A stretch of 64,000 nt of DNA, from positions 186,001 to 250,000 of the forward strand of contig NZ_FNIF01000002.1 in assembly GCF_900103825.1 (NCBI RefSeq), written 5' to 3'. This DNA comes from Paenibacillus sp. yr247 (GTDB lineage: Bacteria; Bacillota; Bacilli; Paenibacillales; NBRC-103111). The notes under the pieces were generated by a model. The model saw nothing but the letters and a program-made list of their open reading frames with translations, searched no databases and was not told the origin of the DNA. The position numbers were made by a program, and so were the translations under genes. Of the stretch, positions 8,629 through 16,673 are shown piece by piece; position 1 is the first letter of the stretch; every line of letters begins with the position of its first letter.

Positions 8629-8758
8629 AAATACCTATCCCCTTCCATCCCTTTAGCTCCATTTGTCATCACCAAAGGCTTTACCCATTATACCATTTTC
8701 AGGTCAAAATATGATATGCTGTAAGAGATTCCTACCACTATTCATTAGGAGCAGAGCC

Positions 8759-9460
8759 GTGAACATTCACATCCAACTCTTCGCAGGTCTAGTAGACCTT
8801 TTCGGGACTTCTGTCCTACATATACATGTAGAACAAGAGTCTGTTTCTATCGAACAGCTCAAAAAGCAAATCAATGCTGCCTATCCGGCTGCTTCCGCTC
8901 AATTGATGACCTGTTTTTTTGCAAAAAATCAAGCTTATGCGGGTGATCAGGAAATGGTCACAGCGGCAGACGAAATTGCACTCATTCCCCCTGTGTCAGG
9001 CGGACAACCTTCTAATTACGAAATCACCCACGACACCATTGATGTAGCCGAAGTAACATCTAAAGTAAACAATCCTAATCATGGTGCTTCGCTTGCCTTC
9101 ATAGGAACAACAAGAGAGATGACCAATGGGCAGCGAACTGTCCTATTGGAATATGAAGCCTATATACCGATGGCATTGAAAACCATGGAAACAATCGGTC
9201 ACGAGATTGAAGCTCGGTGGCCGGGCACGTTTTGTGCGATTACACATCGTTTGGGCAAAGTGGCTATTGCTGAGGCTAGCGTTGTCATTGCCGTTTCCTC
9301 CCCGCATCGGGCTGACTGCTATGAAGCGAGCCGGTACGCGATAGAACGTCTGAAACAAATCGTGCCCATTTGGAAAAAAGAAATATGGGATGATGGTTCA
9401 GAGTGGAAGGGCAGCCAAACAGGCCCTTGGAACCCGCTCCAAACGCCACAGTTTGAATAG
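8759..9460 (+). CDS. Fused molybdopterin synthase MoaD-MoaE
   Basis: 233 residues starting at GTG 8759, which follows AGGAGC; an open frame from 8663 has no comparable ribosome binding site. Residues ~1-81 are MoaD (ubiquitin-like), ending in PPVSGG, the Gly-Gly that must carry a thiocarboxylate. Residues ~90-233 are MoaE: FIGTTREMTNGQ, LEYEAYIPMA, HRLGKVAIAEASV, SSPHRADCYEA and the active-site lysines in IWKKEIWDDG. Together they convert precursor Z (cPMP) to molybdopterin. In the fusion the Gly-Gly is internal, so cleavage is needed to free it, as reported for MoaX of Mycobacterium tuberculosis. The gene for its activating enzyme follows 22 bases downstream. Confidence 0.9.
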   Translation: MNIHIQLFAGLVDLFGTSVLHIHVEQESVSIEQLKKQINAAYPAASAQLMTCFFAKNQAYAGDQEMVTAADEIALIPPVSGGQPSNYEITHDTIDVAEVTSKVNNPNHGASLAFIGTTREMTNGQRTVLLEYEAYIPMALKTMETIGHEIEARWPGTFCAITHRLGKVAIAEASVVIAVSSPHRADCYEASRYAIERLKQIVPIWKKEIWDDGSEWKGSQTGPWNPLQTPQFE

Positions 9461-9482
9461 ACCCGATTGGAGATGAGCTTAC

Positions 9483-10547
9483 TTGGACTCACATTTACAT
9501 ACAGGACAAAATGATGTCGTTGATTCGCGCTATTCCCGGCAAGTTCTCTTTTCCCCTATAGGCCTGGAAGGCCAGCGCAAACTTATTGGTAGTCGAGTCG
9601 CAATCGTAGGAATGGGCGCTTTGGGCACAGTTCTTGCCAACCATATGGTTCGTGCCGGGGTCGGATATGTACGATTGATTGACCGCGATTTTGTTGATAC
9701 AAGCAATTTGCAAAGACAAATGCTTTACGATGAAGAAGATGCAGCTACTACTACTCCTAAGGCGATTGCAGCAGCAAGACGCTTACAGTTCGTGAATTCG
9801 CAGATCACGATTGAGCCACATGTGACTGATCTAAATGCCACGAATGCTGAAGAATTGTTAAGTGATGTGGATTTGATCTTGGATGGAACGGATAACTTCT
9901 CGGTCCGCTTCCTCATTAACGATGTGAGTATTAAACTAGGTATTCCCTGGATTTATGGCGGTGCGGTCGCCTCCAGAGGCGTCTCTTTGACGATCATTCC
10001 GGGACAAACTCCTTGCTTGCGCTGCTTATTTACGCAAGCCCCTGCTGCAGGCATGACAGAAACCTGTGATACCGCTGGTGTTATAGGCGGAATCATTCAC
10101 GTTGTCGCTTCATTTCAAGCAACCGAAGCTCTTAAACTGCTTATTGGCGCAAGCGAACATCTCAATCTCCGAATGCAGCAATGGGACTTATGGTTCAATC
10201 AGCATTCGGCCATTAGTGTAGCCGGCGCGCTTAAATCAGATTGTCCCGCCTGTGCAATGAAGCAATATGATTACTTAGAGGCCGGTGTGGAAAGCGACAC
10301 GATTCAATCCTTGTGCGGACGTAATTCCGTCCAGATTCATCCGGTCATTCCTTCTACCAGACCGCTTGAATACTGGGAAGAACGCTTGAAACCACTTGGA
10401 CCGGTAGAGAAAAATCGCTTTCTGTTAAAGTTCCAAGCTGCCCCCGATTTGCATATGGTCATTTTCCCTGACGGGCGTGTACTGATTCAAGGAACCGAAG
10501 ATTTAATTCAGGCCAAGAGTCTTTACAGCCGTTATATTGGGATGTAG
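9483..10547 (+). CDS. moeB: MoeB/ThiF-family adenylyltransferase
   Basis: 354 residues. The start is TTG at 9483, 8 bases after GGAG. The nucleotide-binding loop VGMGALGTVLANHM, the RDFVDTSNLQRQ segment and TDNFSVRFLINDV with IYGGAVASRG are classic E1-like MoeB/ThiF features; two zinc-binding pairs, CLRC and CPAC, are present. The last ~85 residues after CPAC form an extra domain that is not an obvious rhodanese. The enzyme would adenylate the C-terminal Gly of MoaD to allow thiocarboxylate formation. Position directly behind moaD-moaE favours MoeB over ThiF. No other moa or moe gene is in the window. Confidence 0.85.
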   Translation: MDSHLHTGQNDVVDSRYSRQVLFSPIGLEGQRKLIGSRVAIVGMGALGTVLANHMVRAGVGYVRLIDRDFVDTSNLQRQMLYDEEDAATTTPKAIAAARRLQFVNSQITIEPHVTDLNATNAEELLSDVDLILDGTDNFSVRFLINDVSIKLGIPWIYGGAVASRGVSLTIIPGQTPCLRCLFTQAPAAGMTETCDTAGVIGGIIHVVASFQATEALKLLIGASEHLNLRMQQWDLWFNQHSAISVAGALKSDCPACAMKQYDYLEAGVESDTIQSLCGRNSVQIHPVIPSTRPLEYWEERLKPLGPVEKNRFLLKFQAAPDLHMVIFPDGRVLIQGTEDLIQAKSLYSRYIGM

Positions 10548-11649: not shown

Positions 11650-12039
11650 CTAAATAATAAGACTGCTGACTGCAATTGCAATCCCAATATAAACGGCAGC
11701 CAGCAGCGTACCAACAGCCAGATTCCCTTGTTTTATTTGATCGGACAGCTTCACTCCTGGAGTTAGCCAATCAAAGATCCAGTAGGTAGCCACCAAACAG
11801 CTGTAACCTACCGCAAACCATAAGCTCATATGCCAAATCGAAGAATTGGTATATGCGGCAATCCCTAATATGATAGCAGTCGCTACAAATTTGCCGCCCA
11901 TGGTGATTCCAACAGCTACATTACCATTGTTAATTTCCTCCATATCGCGGTAGGGAGTCATTAAACTAAACACATACATTCCTGCAAATTGCAGCAAGAC
12001 GATCACAAACAAACTAATGATTAGATCCAAAACGATCAT
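11650..12039 (-). CDS. DUF350 family membrane protein
   Basis: 129 residues, nearly all membrane: about four helices arranged as two similar halves (DLIISLFVIVLLQFAGMYVF..., and NLAVGTLLAAVYIGIAIAVS). The repeated element NGNVAVGITMGGKFVATAI / QGNLAVGTLLAAVYIGIAI is the DUF350 signature, also found in Escherichia coli YjfL. The start ATG (12037-12039) overlaps the stop of the upstream gene as ATGA and follows GGGGGTGGGCAG. Last gene of a five-gene operon with an ATP-grasp ligase; E. coli yjfL likewise lies near such a ligase gene (yjfC). Molecular function unknown. Confidence 0.85.
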   Translation of the reverse strand: MIVLDLIISLFVIVLLQFAGMYVFSLMTPYRDMEEINNGNVAVGITMGGKFVATAIILGIAAYTNSSIWHMSLWFAVGYSCLVATYWIFDWLTPGVKLSDQIKQGNLAVGTLLAAVYIGIAIAVSSLII

Positions 12040-12689
12040 TCTGCCCACCCCCGAAATTTAGCCATTGATTGATCAAAATTGCTGTAATCGTGTACTTCCT
12101 CTAGAATAACCTGTACTTCCTTCTTGTTTTTGAAGCTTTCATAGCGTTCCTCAGGAATAGGCTGCTTCACTTTTTGCCCAGTTGGTAGATCAGCCACGGC
12201 GAAATAGCGAAATTTGCCATCGAGCTCCGTTTTATAAACTCCTACCAATTTCACATCCGTCTTAATTTCTAATTTTAACTCCGCTAAATCTTTTTCAGCT
12301 TCTTCTTTTGTTTTAAACGTCTTAATAGGCTTCCATTGCGACAATGTCACATCGTTCTTCCCTTGACTATCCGTTTTCATCGTCGCCTGCATATAGCTGA
12401 GTACCCATATTTGGTCCCCTGTAGCAAAATTCTGATCATTCGAGATACGTTCATTGTTTGGAAGCAGGACCATATCTCCGTCCAACAAATCCCCGACTTT
12501 TGCTTGCTGTATCTGATAATCCCATGGCACTTCACCATTCATACTACTTGTATTTGCCGCACTTCCTACTGTTGCTGTTGTCTTGCTTAAAACAGATGGC
12601 TTCTTATGAAACGCGCTGCTAATGGCCCAAATGATCACGATGCATACAATGAAGCCCGCAGCCATTAGCCAAAATCGTCTTTGTTTCAA
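12036..12689 (-). CDS. Membrane-anchored protein of unknown function in the ATP-grasp operon
   Basis: 217 residues from a TTG (12687-12689) that overlaps the stop of the ATP-grasp gene and follows GGAG; the longer open frame to 12767 lies inside that gene. Residues ~7-25 form a single hydrophobic segment (FWLMAAGFIVCIVIIWAISS), likely a signal anchor; the rest (~190 residues) is soluble and probably extracytoplasmic. Visible features are an acidic/polar region with QAKVGDLLDGDMVLLPNN near residue 60 and a beta-rich C-terminus ending FRGWAE. I do not recognise a family. Translational overlap on both sides suggests it works with the ligase and the DUF350 protein. Confidence 0.75.
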   Translation of the reverse strand: MKQRRFWLMAAGFIVCIVIIWAISSAFHKKPSVLSKTTATVGSAANTSSMNGEVPWDYQIQQAKVGDLLDGDMVLLPNNERISNDQNFATGDQIWVLSYMQATMKTDSQGKNDVTLSQWKPIKTFKTKEEAEKDLAELKLEIKTDVKLVGVYKTELDGKFRYFAVADLPTGQKVKQPIPEERYESFKNKKEVQVILEEVHDYSNFDQSMAKFRGWAE

Positions 12690-13882
12690 GGTGCTTTCAC
12701 TCCTATCGCTACAAATTGACTGGCATTTCCTGTAATCATCCCGCCTGCTCGCCCTAATAGACCGCACGGTGTTCCATTTAGAACAAAAAGACCCGTTAAT
12801 AAATGCTTATTTCCATGGGCAAAAGGCAGCTCAGGTAAATCGGCTCGCTGCTGGTAAACGCGCTGAAAAAACACACTCGTATCAAAGCCGACTTCATCTT
12901 TGATCTCTAACTTCCCCTGCACGTTATAGAGCTCAACGGAACCGCCTTCTCTACCGAACATGGATTTGGACACATAATCCCTTGGTAGCGCGGGCGTAGT
13001 ATAGGTAGGCAGCATATAGGTCTCTATTGCCTTGTGCTCATCCGACGTGAACATATCATTGTTTTCCTCATGTAAGCCCCAAATAATGGCTTGTAGGCCT
13101 TTCGATTGCAAGATAACAGCGTGTAGAGGATTGAATAATTGAATGAATTGTTCTTCAATCGCATAAGCAAATGCCTCTCCGCCATCGTCAATACCCATCC
13201 ATTCCTTCGGGTATAGAGCAAACATTTTCGTGATGGTTTGATTCTCGCCAACCTTAACCACGCCTTCATCGATCCACAAATCCAAACAGTCAACACACGT
13301 CATGCTTCTTCCACTGTGAGCTACAAGTGCATCAATTGTTCCTGTATCTTCAGCATGCTGTCCATATGCTATGCAGGCAGCAAAGTCTGGAGCTTCTATC
13401 TCCCAAGCCGCGCGGATAAGCTCTTTCATCGCATGATTAGGTGATTCCATCCCCTTTTGTTCACATAACCAAGGTGTAGCGATGGCTGCCTCTACATACC
13501 CTGTTGGTGTATCTGCATTCAGCTCTAATAGCTTGATGTCCCCTTGCAGATTTACGGTAAAATCAAATCTTGCATAACGACTAATGAAGCCCGCGGCATT
13601 CGGCTCCAGTCGATCTAATCCATCCCACAGCACTTCAGGGATAGACAATAACGCATATAACTCCCTATTTCCTTTCAGATAACGAACGGCTTTATCAAAT
13701 ATGTGCCACAAAACTTCGGCCGTATGGATAAGTTCTTCGTAGGCTTTCCTGTCCATAACCACGAGTTGGTCGATCCAGTAAGCTTCATCTCCCAGATTTG
13801 CCCAGGTAAATCCGAGGTCCGCCAGCTGCTGCACCCTATGAGCTCTGTCAGGAAAAGGCGTTCCTATGACTTCATAAACCAC
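12686..13882 (-). CDS. Glutathionylspermidine-synthase-like ATP-grasp ligase
   Basis: 398 residues from GTG 13880-13882 after CAGGGGGT; a longer open frame reaching 14146 overlaps the upstream gene in another phase and is low-complexity, so I rejected it. Motifs of the C-terminal ligase domain of glutathionylspermidine synthase are clear: SRYARFDFTVN with LLELNADTPTG (ATP-grasp, near residues 105-130), YPKEWM, and YVSKSMFGREGG near residue 310 (nucleotide-binding). E. coli homologues YgiC and YjfC have this stand-alone domain. The family forms amide bonds between a carboxylate and an amine using ATP; the real substrate here is unknown. No amidase domain is present. Operon partners are a DUF350 protein and an exported Ser/Gly-rich protein. 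Confidence 0.85.
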   Translation of the reverse strand: MVYEVIGTPFPDRAHRVQQLADLGFTWANLGDEAYWIDQLVVMDRKAYEELIHTAEVLWHIFDKAVRYLKGNRELYALLSIPEVLWDGLDRLEPNAAGFISRYARFDFTVNLQGDIKLLELNADTPTGYVEAAIATPWLCEQKGMESPNHAMKELIRAAWEIEAPDFAACIAYGQHAEDTGTIDALVAHSGRSMTCVDCLDLWIDEGVVKVGENQTITKMFALYPKEWMGIDDGGEAFAYAIEEQFIQLFNPLHAVILQSKGLQAIIWGLHEENNDMFTSDEHKAIETYMLPTYTTPALPRDYVSKSMFGREGGSVELYNVQGKLEIKDEVGFDTSVFFQRVYQQRADLPELPFAHGNKHLLTGLFVLNGTPCGLLGRAGGMITGNASQFVAIGVKAP

Positions 13883-13886
13883 AGAT

Positions 13887-14591
13887 TTAACCCCCTGAGC
13901 TAGAGCTTGAGCTGGATGAGGAGCTGAAACCACTTGATTTACCGCCAATGCTGCCGGAAGAGGTGGAGGTCGACTTGGAGCTGGATGTTGTACCGCTGCT
14001 CGTACCGGAGCTGCTAGCGGAACCCGTATTCCCTGTCGTCCCCGTCTTACTGCCTGATGTTGAATTATTGGTTGTAAACGTGCCTGTTCCACTTGAAGTG
14101 GTTGGTGTTTTTGTTGCGGAACGGTTTGAGAATGAACTCGGTTCATACGTTTTCGTCACATAAGGTGTATTCGAACGATAATAATAAGAGCGATGATTAC
14201 TTCCCCAATTACTCGACGAGTACGGGCTTCCACTATTAAAAATCAGATGGTAAAGCAGTAGATCATCCCATCCAAAGCCGCCGCCACCGCTTACCTGGTT
14301 CACAATGATGGGTGTCGTGCTTCCTCCTGATCCAGTCGAGGCACTTCCTGCTGCAGGTGTAGGTGATGGAGAAGGAAATGTCGTTTTATTTTCCGCTGGG
14401 ATAGGTATACTCCAGTCAACAAAAGGATCGTAATAAGCCTTCACATCTTCTGAAGACCATTCTACCAGCTTAGATGCTCCTGCCCCAGCAGTCGGATTTG
14501 GGGACTCCGCGGCGTGTGCCGGAAACAGCAGCATTTGACCAACGAGCATGATTCCTAAAGAGGTTGAAATTACTTTCAACGGTCGTTTCAC
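13887..14591 (-). CDS. Exported Ser/Gly/Thr-rich low-complexity protein
   Basis: 234 residues from GTG 14589-14591 (GTGA overlap with the upstream gene, GGGGGAGGG before it). Residues ~1-28 are a signal peptide (hydrophobic core LGIMLVGQMLLF, cleavage likely after AHA). Residues ~29-150 include a short ordered patch GGGGFGWDDLLLYHLIF and an aromatic patch HRSYYYRSNTPY. From ~150 the chain is almost pure Ser, Thr and Gly with scattered Lys/Asn, ending in about ten Ser followed by Gly-Gly. The stop is 5 bases before the ligase start. E. coli ygiB-ygiC and yjfM-yjfC also pair a small exported protein (DUF1190) with a ligase of this type; the parallel is by arrangement, not shown homology. Confidence 0.75.
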   Translation of the reverse strand: MKRPLKVISTSLGIMLVGQMLLFPAHAAESPNPTAGAGASKLVEWSSEDVKAYYDPFVDWSIPIPAENKTTFPSPSPTPAAGSASTGSGGSTTPIIVNQVSGGGGFGWDDLLLYHLIFNSGSPYSSSNWGSNHRSYYYRSNTPYVTKTYEPSSFSNRSATKTPTTSSGTGTFTTNNSTSGSKTGTTGNTGSASSSGTSSGTTSSSKSTSTSSGSIGGKSSGFSSSSSSSSSSGG

Positions 14592-14809
14592 TGCTTATTC
14601 CCTCCCCCTTCTGAACTTACCGTAACCAGTAATAGCTCAAAAACATTAAGATCCAAGTTCAATCTTCCTTCAATCATTTCATATTCCTTGCCGCCAATAA
14701 GAACAAAGTTCGCTACATTTAAGGCTTGGATGAGTTTCTCATCCCAGGGCCGTTCACTAATTTTCTGCAGCTGTCCGTCCGCCAATTTTTCGAAAAGAGT
14801 AATATTCAT
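14588..14809 (-). CDS. Small cytosolic protein, first gene of the ATP-grasp operon
   Basis: 73 residues, acidic, no membrane segment, ending in SSEGGGNKQ. It opens the five-gene operon and its stop overlaps the next start. ATG 14807-14809 follows GGGAGGATTAAATCG. The pattern VANFVLIGGKEYEMIEGRLN suggests a small beta-rich fold. I do not recognise a family. No clear -10/-35 pair is visible immediately upstream. Confidence 0.65.
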   Translation of the reverse strand: MNITLFEKLADGQLQKISERPWDEKLIQALNVANFVLIGGKEYEMIEGRLNLDLNVFELLLVTVSSEGGGNKQ

Positions 14810-14882
14810 CGATTTAATCCTCCCTCATCCGTGACTTCATACTAGATAAAACGCACGAACAGACTTTTTGTTTCAACTTGGC

Positions 14883-14918
14883 AAAAATAAAAAAAGCCTA
14901 CCCTTCAGGATAGACTTT
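14883..14918 (-). terminator. Terminator of the NlpC/P60 gene
   Basis: Minus-strand stem AAAGTCTATCC / GGGTAGGCTTT with loop TGAA, followed by a T-rich run (TTTTTATTTTT). It is 7 bases downstream of the NlpC/P60 stop codon. Confidence 0.8.
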
Positions 14919-16169: not shown

Positions 16170-16673
16170 TTAGGAAGGTTTAAATAATCCCGTTATCCAC
16201 TTGGCAAAATCGACAGTAATCGGAATCAGGCCAAACCCATGCTGCCCTATTACAACAAAACCGTAAGCAGACTCACCCATCCCAACAGCACCAAGAGCTG
16301 TTTTACCAATTGCTACAGCTCCTAAGGCTAATTTTCCGACTGCAACAGCACCGATGGAAAGCCAATTGGAAATAGCTACGGCCCCTCCAGCCAAATAGCT
16401 AGCGATGGCAACTGCTCCAAACGAAGCCAACCACGAAATAGCTACAGCACCAATGGAAAAAATGCCGACACTGACAACTCCAATAGATACAAGTCCAACA
16501 GCAATATCACCTACAGCGAAAACCCCGATCGCTACCCGATGCCTGCCTTTGCGCATACCGCCAGTTCGAATATTAATAATCGGCAAGGAAGGAGACGGCC
16601 ATTGATAATCAATTTCCCGCTGATTCCAACCTCTGCTCTCCCACATGCCATTGAACCAGTTCTTGCTGCTCAT
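16170..16673 (-). CDS. Protein with tandem Gly-Ala-Val-Ala-Ile-Gly repeats
   Basis: 167 residues. A polar N-terminus of ~45 residues (WFNGMWESRGWNQREIDYQW) leads into ~100 residues built of near-regular six-residue units of the type GAVAIG (VAIGVFAVGDIAVG, SIGVVSVGIFSIG, GAVAVGKLALGAVAIG). The last 25 residues are ordinary (PITVDFAKWITGLFKPS). The repeats contain almost no charge, so the region may pack as a membrane-embedded or solenoid beta structure; neither is shown. I recognise no named domain. Its ATG faces the divergent PH-domain gene about 185 bases away. Confidence 0.65.
   Translation of the reverse strand: MSSKNWFNGMWESRGWNQREIDYQWPSPSLPIINIRTGGMRKGRHRVAIGVFAVGDIAVGLVSIGVVSVGIFSIGAVAISWLASFGAVAIASYLAGGAVAISNWLSIGAVAVGKLALGAVAIGKTALGAVGMGESAYGFVVIGQHGFGLIPITVDFAKWITGLFKPS

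Follow-up and report, generated by a model that had tools for sequence, protein, structure and literature searches.

The window, that is, the whole stretch of 64,000 nucleotides analysed here (Paenibacillus sp. yr247, NCBI RefSeq assembly GCF_900103825.1, contig NZ_FNIF01000002.1, positions 186,001 to 250,000), contains an operon of five minus-strand genes, from window position 14809 to 11650, that encodes an ATP-grasp ligase together with an exported protein, a signal-anchor protein, a DUF350 membrane protein and a small protein. The genes are as tightly packed as a sequence-only reading of this DNA had described, with three 4-base overlaps and one 4-base gap (Table 1). That reading had also placed two of the products correctly: the ligase matches PF03738 (GSP_synth) at 173.1 bits against a cut-off of 29.3 (E 1.3e-50), and the gene 5 product matches DUF350/YjfL PF03994 at 109.1 bits against a cut-off of 26 (E 2.3e-31). 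Three of the five genes had been left without a family and, indeed, genes 1, 2 and 4 give nothing over the curated cut-offs in Pfam or NCBIfam. The exported protein was described as rich in Ser, Gly and Thr; its conserved carboxyl end, which was overlooked, is the predicted site of action of the neighbouring ligase and the main subject of this analysis.

Table 1. Features of the five-gene operon and its upstream region (window coordinates)
Feature	Position	Strand	Description
Gene 1	14809-14588	(-)	73 aa (amino acids), ATG start; no signal peptide by eye
Gene 2	14591-13887	(-)	234 aa, GTG start; exported Ser/Gly-rich protein; 4-base overlap with gene 1
Gene 2 signal peptide	14511..14591	(-)	MKRPLKVISTSLGIMLVGQMLLFPAHA; cleavage AHA/AES, read by eye
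Gene 2 C-terminal tail	13890..13955	(-)	GSIGGKSSGFSSSSSSSSSSGG; bare Gly-Gly carboxyl end, predicted amine-ligation site
Gene 3, GSP_synth (ATP-grasp) ligase	13882-12686	(-)	398 aa, GTG start; 4-base gap after gene 2
Gene 4, signal-anchor protein	12689-12036	(-)	217 aa, TTG start; 4-base overlap with ligase gene
Gene 5, DUF350 (YjfL family) multi-pass membrane protein	12039-11650	(-)	129 aa, ATG start; 4-base overlap with gene 4
Promoter motif TGAAAC-N16-CGT, ECF-sigma (extracytoplasmic function) type	14851..14875	(-)	probable operon promoter
Terminator-like hairpin	14893..14918	(-)	11 pairs then T run; between upstream NlpC/P60-type gene and operon

The tight coupling had been taken to mark a single unit, and the gene neighbourhoods of relatives bear this out; the outcome that was to refute it, relatives in which the five-gene order is not kept, did not occur. 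When profiles of genes 1, 4 and 5 were built from the loci and searched against them, all five genes, in the same order and on one strand, were recovered at 70 of the 71 distinct loci that carry a window-type (type-A) ligase; 30 of the 71 come from one genus, that of the window. The sole exception is L006, whose 4.2-kb stretch gives no DUF350 match. A ligase related to that of the window is present in 52 of 60 genomes of its own and related species, and 212 of the 246 genomes that were sampled across the order encode a PF03738 ligase. A wider trio of exported protein, ligase and DUF350 extends beyond this type, since DUF350 lies at 37 of 40 other loci from the same phylum, whose genomes we take to be Firmicutes (Bacillota), and within the locus in 31 of 82 proteobacterial cases; the proteobacterial counts rest on the best 80 of 591 named loci and lean to Enterobacterales. 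In total, 227 loci were collected, and 15 of them, in which the ligase queries found nothing by tblastn at 1e-5, were left out; removal of 17 duplicates and of L075 and L052, which have no ligase open reading frame (ORF), left 193 loci. The partner of each ligase was defined as the longest ORF of at least 60 aa whose stop lies at -250 to +10 of the ligase start, and such an ORF exists at 191 loci, L138 and L139 being the two without one. This rule picks a wrong ORF at some loci (e.g., L095, L100 and L145), and the partner ORF of L032 begins like a partner and ends differently, perhaps by a frameshift; all of these were kept in the counts, and the window's own locus is counted within the 71, the 191 and the 193.

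The reaction class of the enzyme can be read from its relatives. The nearest solved chains are those of YjfC (1.6e-21) and YgiC (1.5e-12) of E. coli, and the ligase profile also matches trypanothione synthetase (1e-37) and GspSA (7.4e-36). An alignment of 13 sequences that includes YgiC and YjfC shows residues R105, D107, E120, N122, K306, R311 and E312 to be invariant; we take these to be the catalytic and metal-binding RxD, ExN, K and R-E-G elements of the ATP-grasp core. GspSA and trypanothione synthetase couple spermidine to a terminal Gly carboxylate through an amide bond. The window ligase shares the synthetase family with them and differs in having only 398 aa and no amidase part; as a glutathionylspermidine synthase proper, or bifunctional GspSA, it scores 42.3 bits against an NCBIfam equivalog cut-off of 882, and this identity was rejected. 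RefSeq names YgiC and YjfC peptide--spermidine ligases, a naming that, according to citing papers, reportedly goes back to work by Pederick et al. in 2023. The two enzymes are also termed peptidylpolyamine synthetases (PMC12568646). At L138 (4390-7026) and L139 (3704-6172), single ORFs of 878 and 822 aa look like tandem GSP_synth-type domains; these still adjoin an exported tail protein and DUF350, the tails being GGYGAIRGGSAIS and GGYSIFRGTSTS, and neither locus yielded a match to gene 1 or gene 4 of the window type.

The exported partner encoded directly upstream of the ligase has a common carboxyl end. Indeed, of the 191 loci, 144 have a partner ORF with a Gly-Gly end and 181 one whose last residue is Gly or Ser, whereas 4 of 936 control ORFs from the same loci (150 aa or longer) end in Gly-Gly. 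A second control, with the length threshold set at 100 aa, gives 5 of 1301, and three of the five (L177, L213 and L215) are themselves tail proteins. The end is Gly-Gly in 60 and Gly-Ser in 9 of the 71 window-type loci; Gly-Gly in 11, Gly-Ser in 2 and Ser after some other residue in 17 of 38 other loci of the phylum; and Gly-Gly in 73 and Gly-Ser in 4 of the 82 proteobacterial loci. E. coli follows the same rule, YgiB ending in SSRSMGG and YjfM in ARGHWGG. When the ligases are clustered at 50% identity and each cluster is represented once, 10 of 17 partners still end in Gly-Gly, as compared with a mean of 0.5 when the last 40 residues are shuffled with their composition preserved, and none of 2000 shuffles reaches 10; low complexity of the tail as the only cause of the Gly-Gly end is thus not supported. 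An internal G-[FILYM]-[GS] motif is found in 16 of the 17 representatives, against a shuffle mean of 5.4.

This end is common to all partner groups despite bodies that cannot be aligned or barely so. In comparisons of profiles from which the last 40 residues had been removed, the window-type body cannot be aligned with any other group (profile probability 0.2-3.1%), two further groups with lipoprotein-like partners are mutually related (96%), and these two match the DUF1190 group over 18-20 columns only (32 and 58%), which is taken to be the signal-peptide region. In particular, the gene 2 protein is not a DUF1190 (PF06693) member, as it gives no match up to E=1 and a body-profile probability of 0.2%, whereas YgiB and YjfM do match; nor does gene 2 or gene 4 match DUF4247 (PF14042) up to E=1.

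Some loci depart from the usual arrangement. At L177 and L215 the ORF next to the ligase is no tail protein, and a Gly-Gly-tailed protein stands beside a relocated DUF350; at L145 a single gene separates the Gly-Gly-tailed protein from the ligase. The ORFs upstream of the ligase at L124 and L128, of 172 and 159 aa, end in KTSAEIDED..VYVIYA.PAE and are not tail proteins. At L213 a second exported-type ORF beside the ligase (4214, plus strand) ends in SRGGFGSFAHAFGFGGG, which suggests that this one locus has two tail proteins. In the window itself, an ORF at 8663-10547 (+) reads by eye like a MoaD-MoaE fusion followed by a ThiF/MoeB-like ORF, an identification that we presume; it has an internal SGGQ at the junction, and only cleavage of the fusion would expose the MoaD-type Gly-Gly end.

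A contrasting situation is present in operons that encode a DUF4247 protein. A DUF4247 match was found in 12 of 299 genomes of the phylum, and the loci mostly also hold DUF4178, PspA and DUF350; no DUF350 was seen beside DUF4247 in the window genome, whose one DUF4247 match lies on another contig (L229), or at L274. Gene identities at these loci were assigned by eye, except for 10 scanned proteins and the tblastn search for an aminopropyltransferase-like gene. Like gene 2, the DUF4247 protein is exported and has a Gly-rich C-terminal tail, mostly with DUF350 and PspA nearby. However, no ligase was found at the 12 loci (about 6 kb searched on each side, less at the contig end of L281), and the ends differ: all 12 proteins end in Lys or Arg, in contrast to none of the 191 ligase partners, among which no K, R or H end occurs. 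Nine end in GK (e.g., RGGGPGEGK or RGGGIFGGK), and all nine of their loci hold a gene resembling a seven-transmembrane (7TM)-type aminopropyltransferase (spermidine synthase) by tblastn, with Pfam PF01564 in the 6 tested. The other three proteins, that of the window genome among them, terminate in RRR, KRR or GRR, and their loci lack a gene of this kind. A SpeE-like gene, in turn, was found at 0 of 133 ligase loci. Thus, the last residue of the exported protein tracks the enzyme encoded next to it, a small residue going with the ligase, Lys with the aminopropyltransferase-like gene and Arg with neither. The 12 DUF4247 proteins are one family and therefore stand for few independent events.

The supply of a suitable amine was followed in the genomes that carry the ligase. 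The window genome has SpeD and SpeE matches; SpeD is absent from 36 of 55 ligase-bearing genomes chosen from the order-wide sample, and an obligate SpeD/SpeE route to spermidine was rejected on this count. Carboxynorspermidine decarboxylase (nspC) was sought in 20 genomes, namely that of the window and 19 of the 36 without SpeD; it is present in all 19, each of which has a locus with genes 1 and 4, and not in the SpeD-bearing window genome. All 20 genomes thus have either SpeD or nspC, so that a triamine route is kept by one path or the other, which suggests that spermidine pathways have been swapped within the order. Diamines are also possible donors, since genes for PF01276 arginine/lysine/ornithine decarboxylases are present in 10 of 10 genomes tested.

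A further element concerns regulation, which the sequence-only reading did not address. At 58 of the 71 window-type loci, window included, gene 1 is preceded by a motif of the form TGAAAC-N15-17-CGT (30 of 30 in the window's genus and 28 of 41 elsewhere); 57 of the copies are located 58-92 nt before the start taken and that of L034 at 164, as compared with 30 occurrences in 14200 mononucleotide shuffles. We take the window copy, which reads from 14875 to 14851 with a 16-base spacer, to resemble the consensus of SigW/SigM-like ECF sigma factors. By itself it is not significant in 64 kb (0.44 expected) and gains its significance from conservation across loci. The same motif precedes a pspA-DUF350 pair elsewhere in the window genome (L282), and it is found near the start of a pspA or DUF4178 gene at L270, L272 and L273, lying inside the longest ORF at the first two and, by eye, upstream of the likely start. 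Taken from the motif and its conservation, the operon is probably stress-controlled via an ECF-type sigma factor. The transcription unit probably begins at 14809, as the terminator-like hairpin separates the NlpC/P60-type gene from the operon, although chance matches are frequent in the hairpin scan (2 such sites in the region versus a shuffle mean of 3.2). A scan of the region for sigma-70 promoters was uninformative, with 7 matches against 7.0 expected. Further upstream, a 167-aa ORF at 16170-16673 (-) consists of short repeats of the AVAIG/GAVA type and resembles a beta-helix or membrane-surface protein.

Taken together, these data make us lean, with guarded confidence, towards the reading that, under envelope stress, the C-terminal carboxylate of the exported neighbour serves the ligase as acceptor for an amine, probably a polyamine, before the protein is exported. 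This narrows the earlier proposal of an amine or peptide attached to a carboxylate of a protein or envelope molecule: the reaction class holds for the ligase family, the acceptor would be the end of the neighbouring protein, and a polyamine would be the likeliest donor. In such a scheme, an ECF-type sigma factor would switch on both the operon and the separate pspA-DUF350 operon, as the shared promoter motif suggests. The gene 2 protein would carry a signal peptide of the Sec type and a probably disordered Ser/Gly tail that ends in Gly-Gly; the cytosolic ATP-grasp ligase would activate the terminal Gly carboxylate before or during export and may link it to a polyamine, probably spermidine, through a primary amine, much as related enzymes do with glutathione or peptides. 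The amine-capped, cationic tail might then be exported and act at the outer face of the membrane together with the gene 4 and DUF350 proteins, where it could plausibly bind anionic lipids or wall polymers. In E. coli, YgiC-YgiB and YjfC-YjfM are proposed to stand in the same relation of enzyme and substrate. There is a eukaryotic precedent, in which a SUMO with an LGG end receives spermidine on its terminal carboxylate (PMC12270671); the likeness lies in spermidine placed on the C-terminal Gly-Gly carboxylate of a protein, and the difference in the E1/E2 enzymes and cytosolic ubiquitin-like protein of the eukaryotic system, as opposed to one ATP-grasp enzyme and an exported protein here.

Several points weigh against this reading. 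The C-terminal amine modification of the gene 2 protein is inferred, and conservation of the tail could reflect export, protease resistance or binding. The ligase depends on ATP and is therefore cytosolic, whereas its substrate is exported, so that ligation must precede translocation. The terminal residue varies, with Ser at 35 of 191 loci, 19 of them among the other loci of the phylum (e.g., GGIGSSSSSS), and some ligases lack a visible partner: the ligase-DUF350 loci L124 and L128 show no tail protein within 10 kb, and the ligase of L144 is an orphan among the exceptions inspected. Nearly all relatives have genes for polyamine synthesis, whether they carry the ligase or not (59 of 60 genomes for the SpeE family, 57 of 60 for SpeD), so that these genes do not single out the amine; they are consistent with a polyamine and not decisive. 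As to regulation, the motif is missing from 13 of the 71 window-type loci, was not found at 9 of the 12 DUF4247 operon starts or at the DUF350 loci L252, L254 and L256, and is not common to other ligase types (2 of 40 loci in the phylum, both ending in CGA, and 0 of 82 in Proteobacteria). In E. coli, an envelope-stress study lists tolC-ygiABC under BaeR and gives a fold change for tolC only (PMC2731931). Finally, one possible reading of Ravi et al. has DUF4247 in operons of the ligase type as well (PMC11237479); such an arrangement was seen at 0 of the 12 DUF4247 loci, a small sample of one family.

Other explanations have to be weighed against the same data. The ligase might make a free small molecule, such as a peptide-polyamine or a glutathionylspermidine-like compound, that the exported protein, the gene 4 protein and DUF350 bind, sense or export, the tail being a flexible spacer. 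This appears rather unlikely: the best characterised relatives (GspSA, trypanothione synthetase and, by name, YgiC/YjfC) do act on small peptides, but a spacer leaves unexplained why Gly-Gly or Gly-Ser stands at the extreme C-terminus far above the tail composition, why partner bodies that align barely or not at all share one end, and why the ends are basic at ligase-less DUF4247 loci. In addition, YgiC is reported not to make glutathionylspermidine, according to a paper that cites Sui et al. 2012 (PMC12506659).

Alternatively, the tail may be modified with something other than a polyamine, i.e., an amino acid, a cell-wall amine (diaminopimelate, or the stem or cross-bridge of Lipid II) or a lipid amine, in which case the protein would be amide-linked to the wall or membrane. 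ATP-grasp ligases use varied amines, and this explanation draws on the same tail data; moreover, the ligase aside, none of the five genes matches a polyamine-synthesis family, and a SpeE-like gene was found near none of the 133 ligase loci. It is nonetheless improbable, as the nearest solved and named relatives of the ligase use spermidine, an aminopropyltransferase-like gene accompanies 9 of the 12 DUF4247 loci and published related operons carry S-adenosylmethionine (AdoMet) decarboxylase and polyamine oxidase (PMC11237479). Very improbable, lastly, is a tail that serves as a recognition or processing signal for a protease, an export chaperone or DUF350 while the ligase acts on another carboxylate: the internal motif is conserved besides the end residue, and DUF4247 proteins have a similar Gly-rich tail with no ligase nearby, but the end residue varies with the enzyme encoded next door, suggesting that it is the end itself that reacts.

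The preferred reading, C-terminal capping of the exported partner, can be extended to a tentative generalisation, to which we give only a limited chance: C-terminal polyamination of exported envelope-stress proteins would be a dedicated and widespread bacterial modification, carried out by either of two enzymes that are encoded next to related modules for exported tail proteins. The ligase would cap bare Gly-Gly, Gly-Ser or Ser ends with a polyamine, the membrane aminopropyltransferase would extend the side chain of an encoded C-terminal Lys (GK), and, where neither enzyme is encoded nearby, the cationic end would itself be encoded (RRR, KRR or GRR).

The two families that are particular to the window-type operon deserve separate mention. 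Gene 1 homologues are present in 71 of 71 window-type loci, with invariant residues K8, G12, W22, N34, E42, E44, E47, G48, R49 and E58. The gene 4 family has a conserved core, VPWDY...VGDL...DM..LPDN..LPND.NYATGD, and a KFRGW C-terminus; its product has a signal anchor in the window and, since several relatives carry a lipobox-like LSAC, is probably membrane-anchored and outward-facing, a topology assigned by eye. Neither family has a credible relative in Pfam or the PDB, even when homologues are scanned. Indeed, matches of gene 4 to Arm-DNA-bind_4 and SPC22 score below the Pfam cut-off in 4 and 2 of 29 members, respectively, and PDB matches of genes 1 and 4 have E values of 0.3 or worse; all were judged to be chance. 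Genes 1 and 4 are thus two new protein families as judged from sequence, and among the loci examined they occur only with the window-type ligase.

The parallel with ygiB-ygiC and yjfL-yjfM-yjfC of E. coli, drawn from the first inspection of the sequence, is supported. Both E. coli clusters have a ligase of the same family with an exported partner directly upstream that ends in Gly-Gly (SMGG and HWGG), and the yjf cluster also has DUF350 beside ligase and partner; no DUF350 was found in the 4 kb fetched around ygiBC. However, the E. coli partner bodies are DUF1190, the yjf order is DUF350-partner-ligase instead of partner-ligase-gene 4-DUF350, and genes 1 and 4 were not found at either cluster, the yjf neighbours being PspA, DUF2170 and DUF2491 instead. 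Ligases of this type and DUF350 have already been linked with PspA operons and envelope stress by Ravi et al. (2024), whose phage shock protein (PSP) group-3 operons resemble that of the window in joining a glutathionylspermidine synthase-like ATP-grasp protein, DUF350 and an exported lipoprotein; the partner is called a metal-chelating lipoprotein, with no mention of a C-terminal tail or a five-gene form in the text covered (PMC11237479). The five genes lack the features that define that group (PspA-CesT/Tir dyad, DUF2491 and DUF1190), the PspA-DUF350 pair being elsewhere in the genome. In the literature searched, no native substrate for YgiC or YjfC was found, nor any prior statement that such a ligase acts on the C-terminus of its neighbour, though key papers may discuss it.

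Collectively, these data make the neighbouring protein with its Gly-Gly end a concrete candidate substrate for YgiC and YjfC, and genes 1 and 4 add two uncharacterised families to systems of the YjfL-YjfM-YjfC kind. If the reading is true, it would define a bacterial protein modification and explain in chemical terms why polyamine enzymes are repeatedly linked with PspA and DUF350 in envelope stress.

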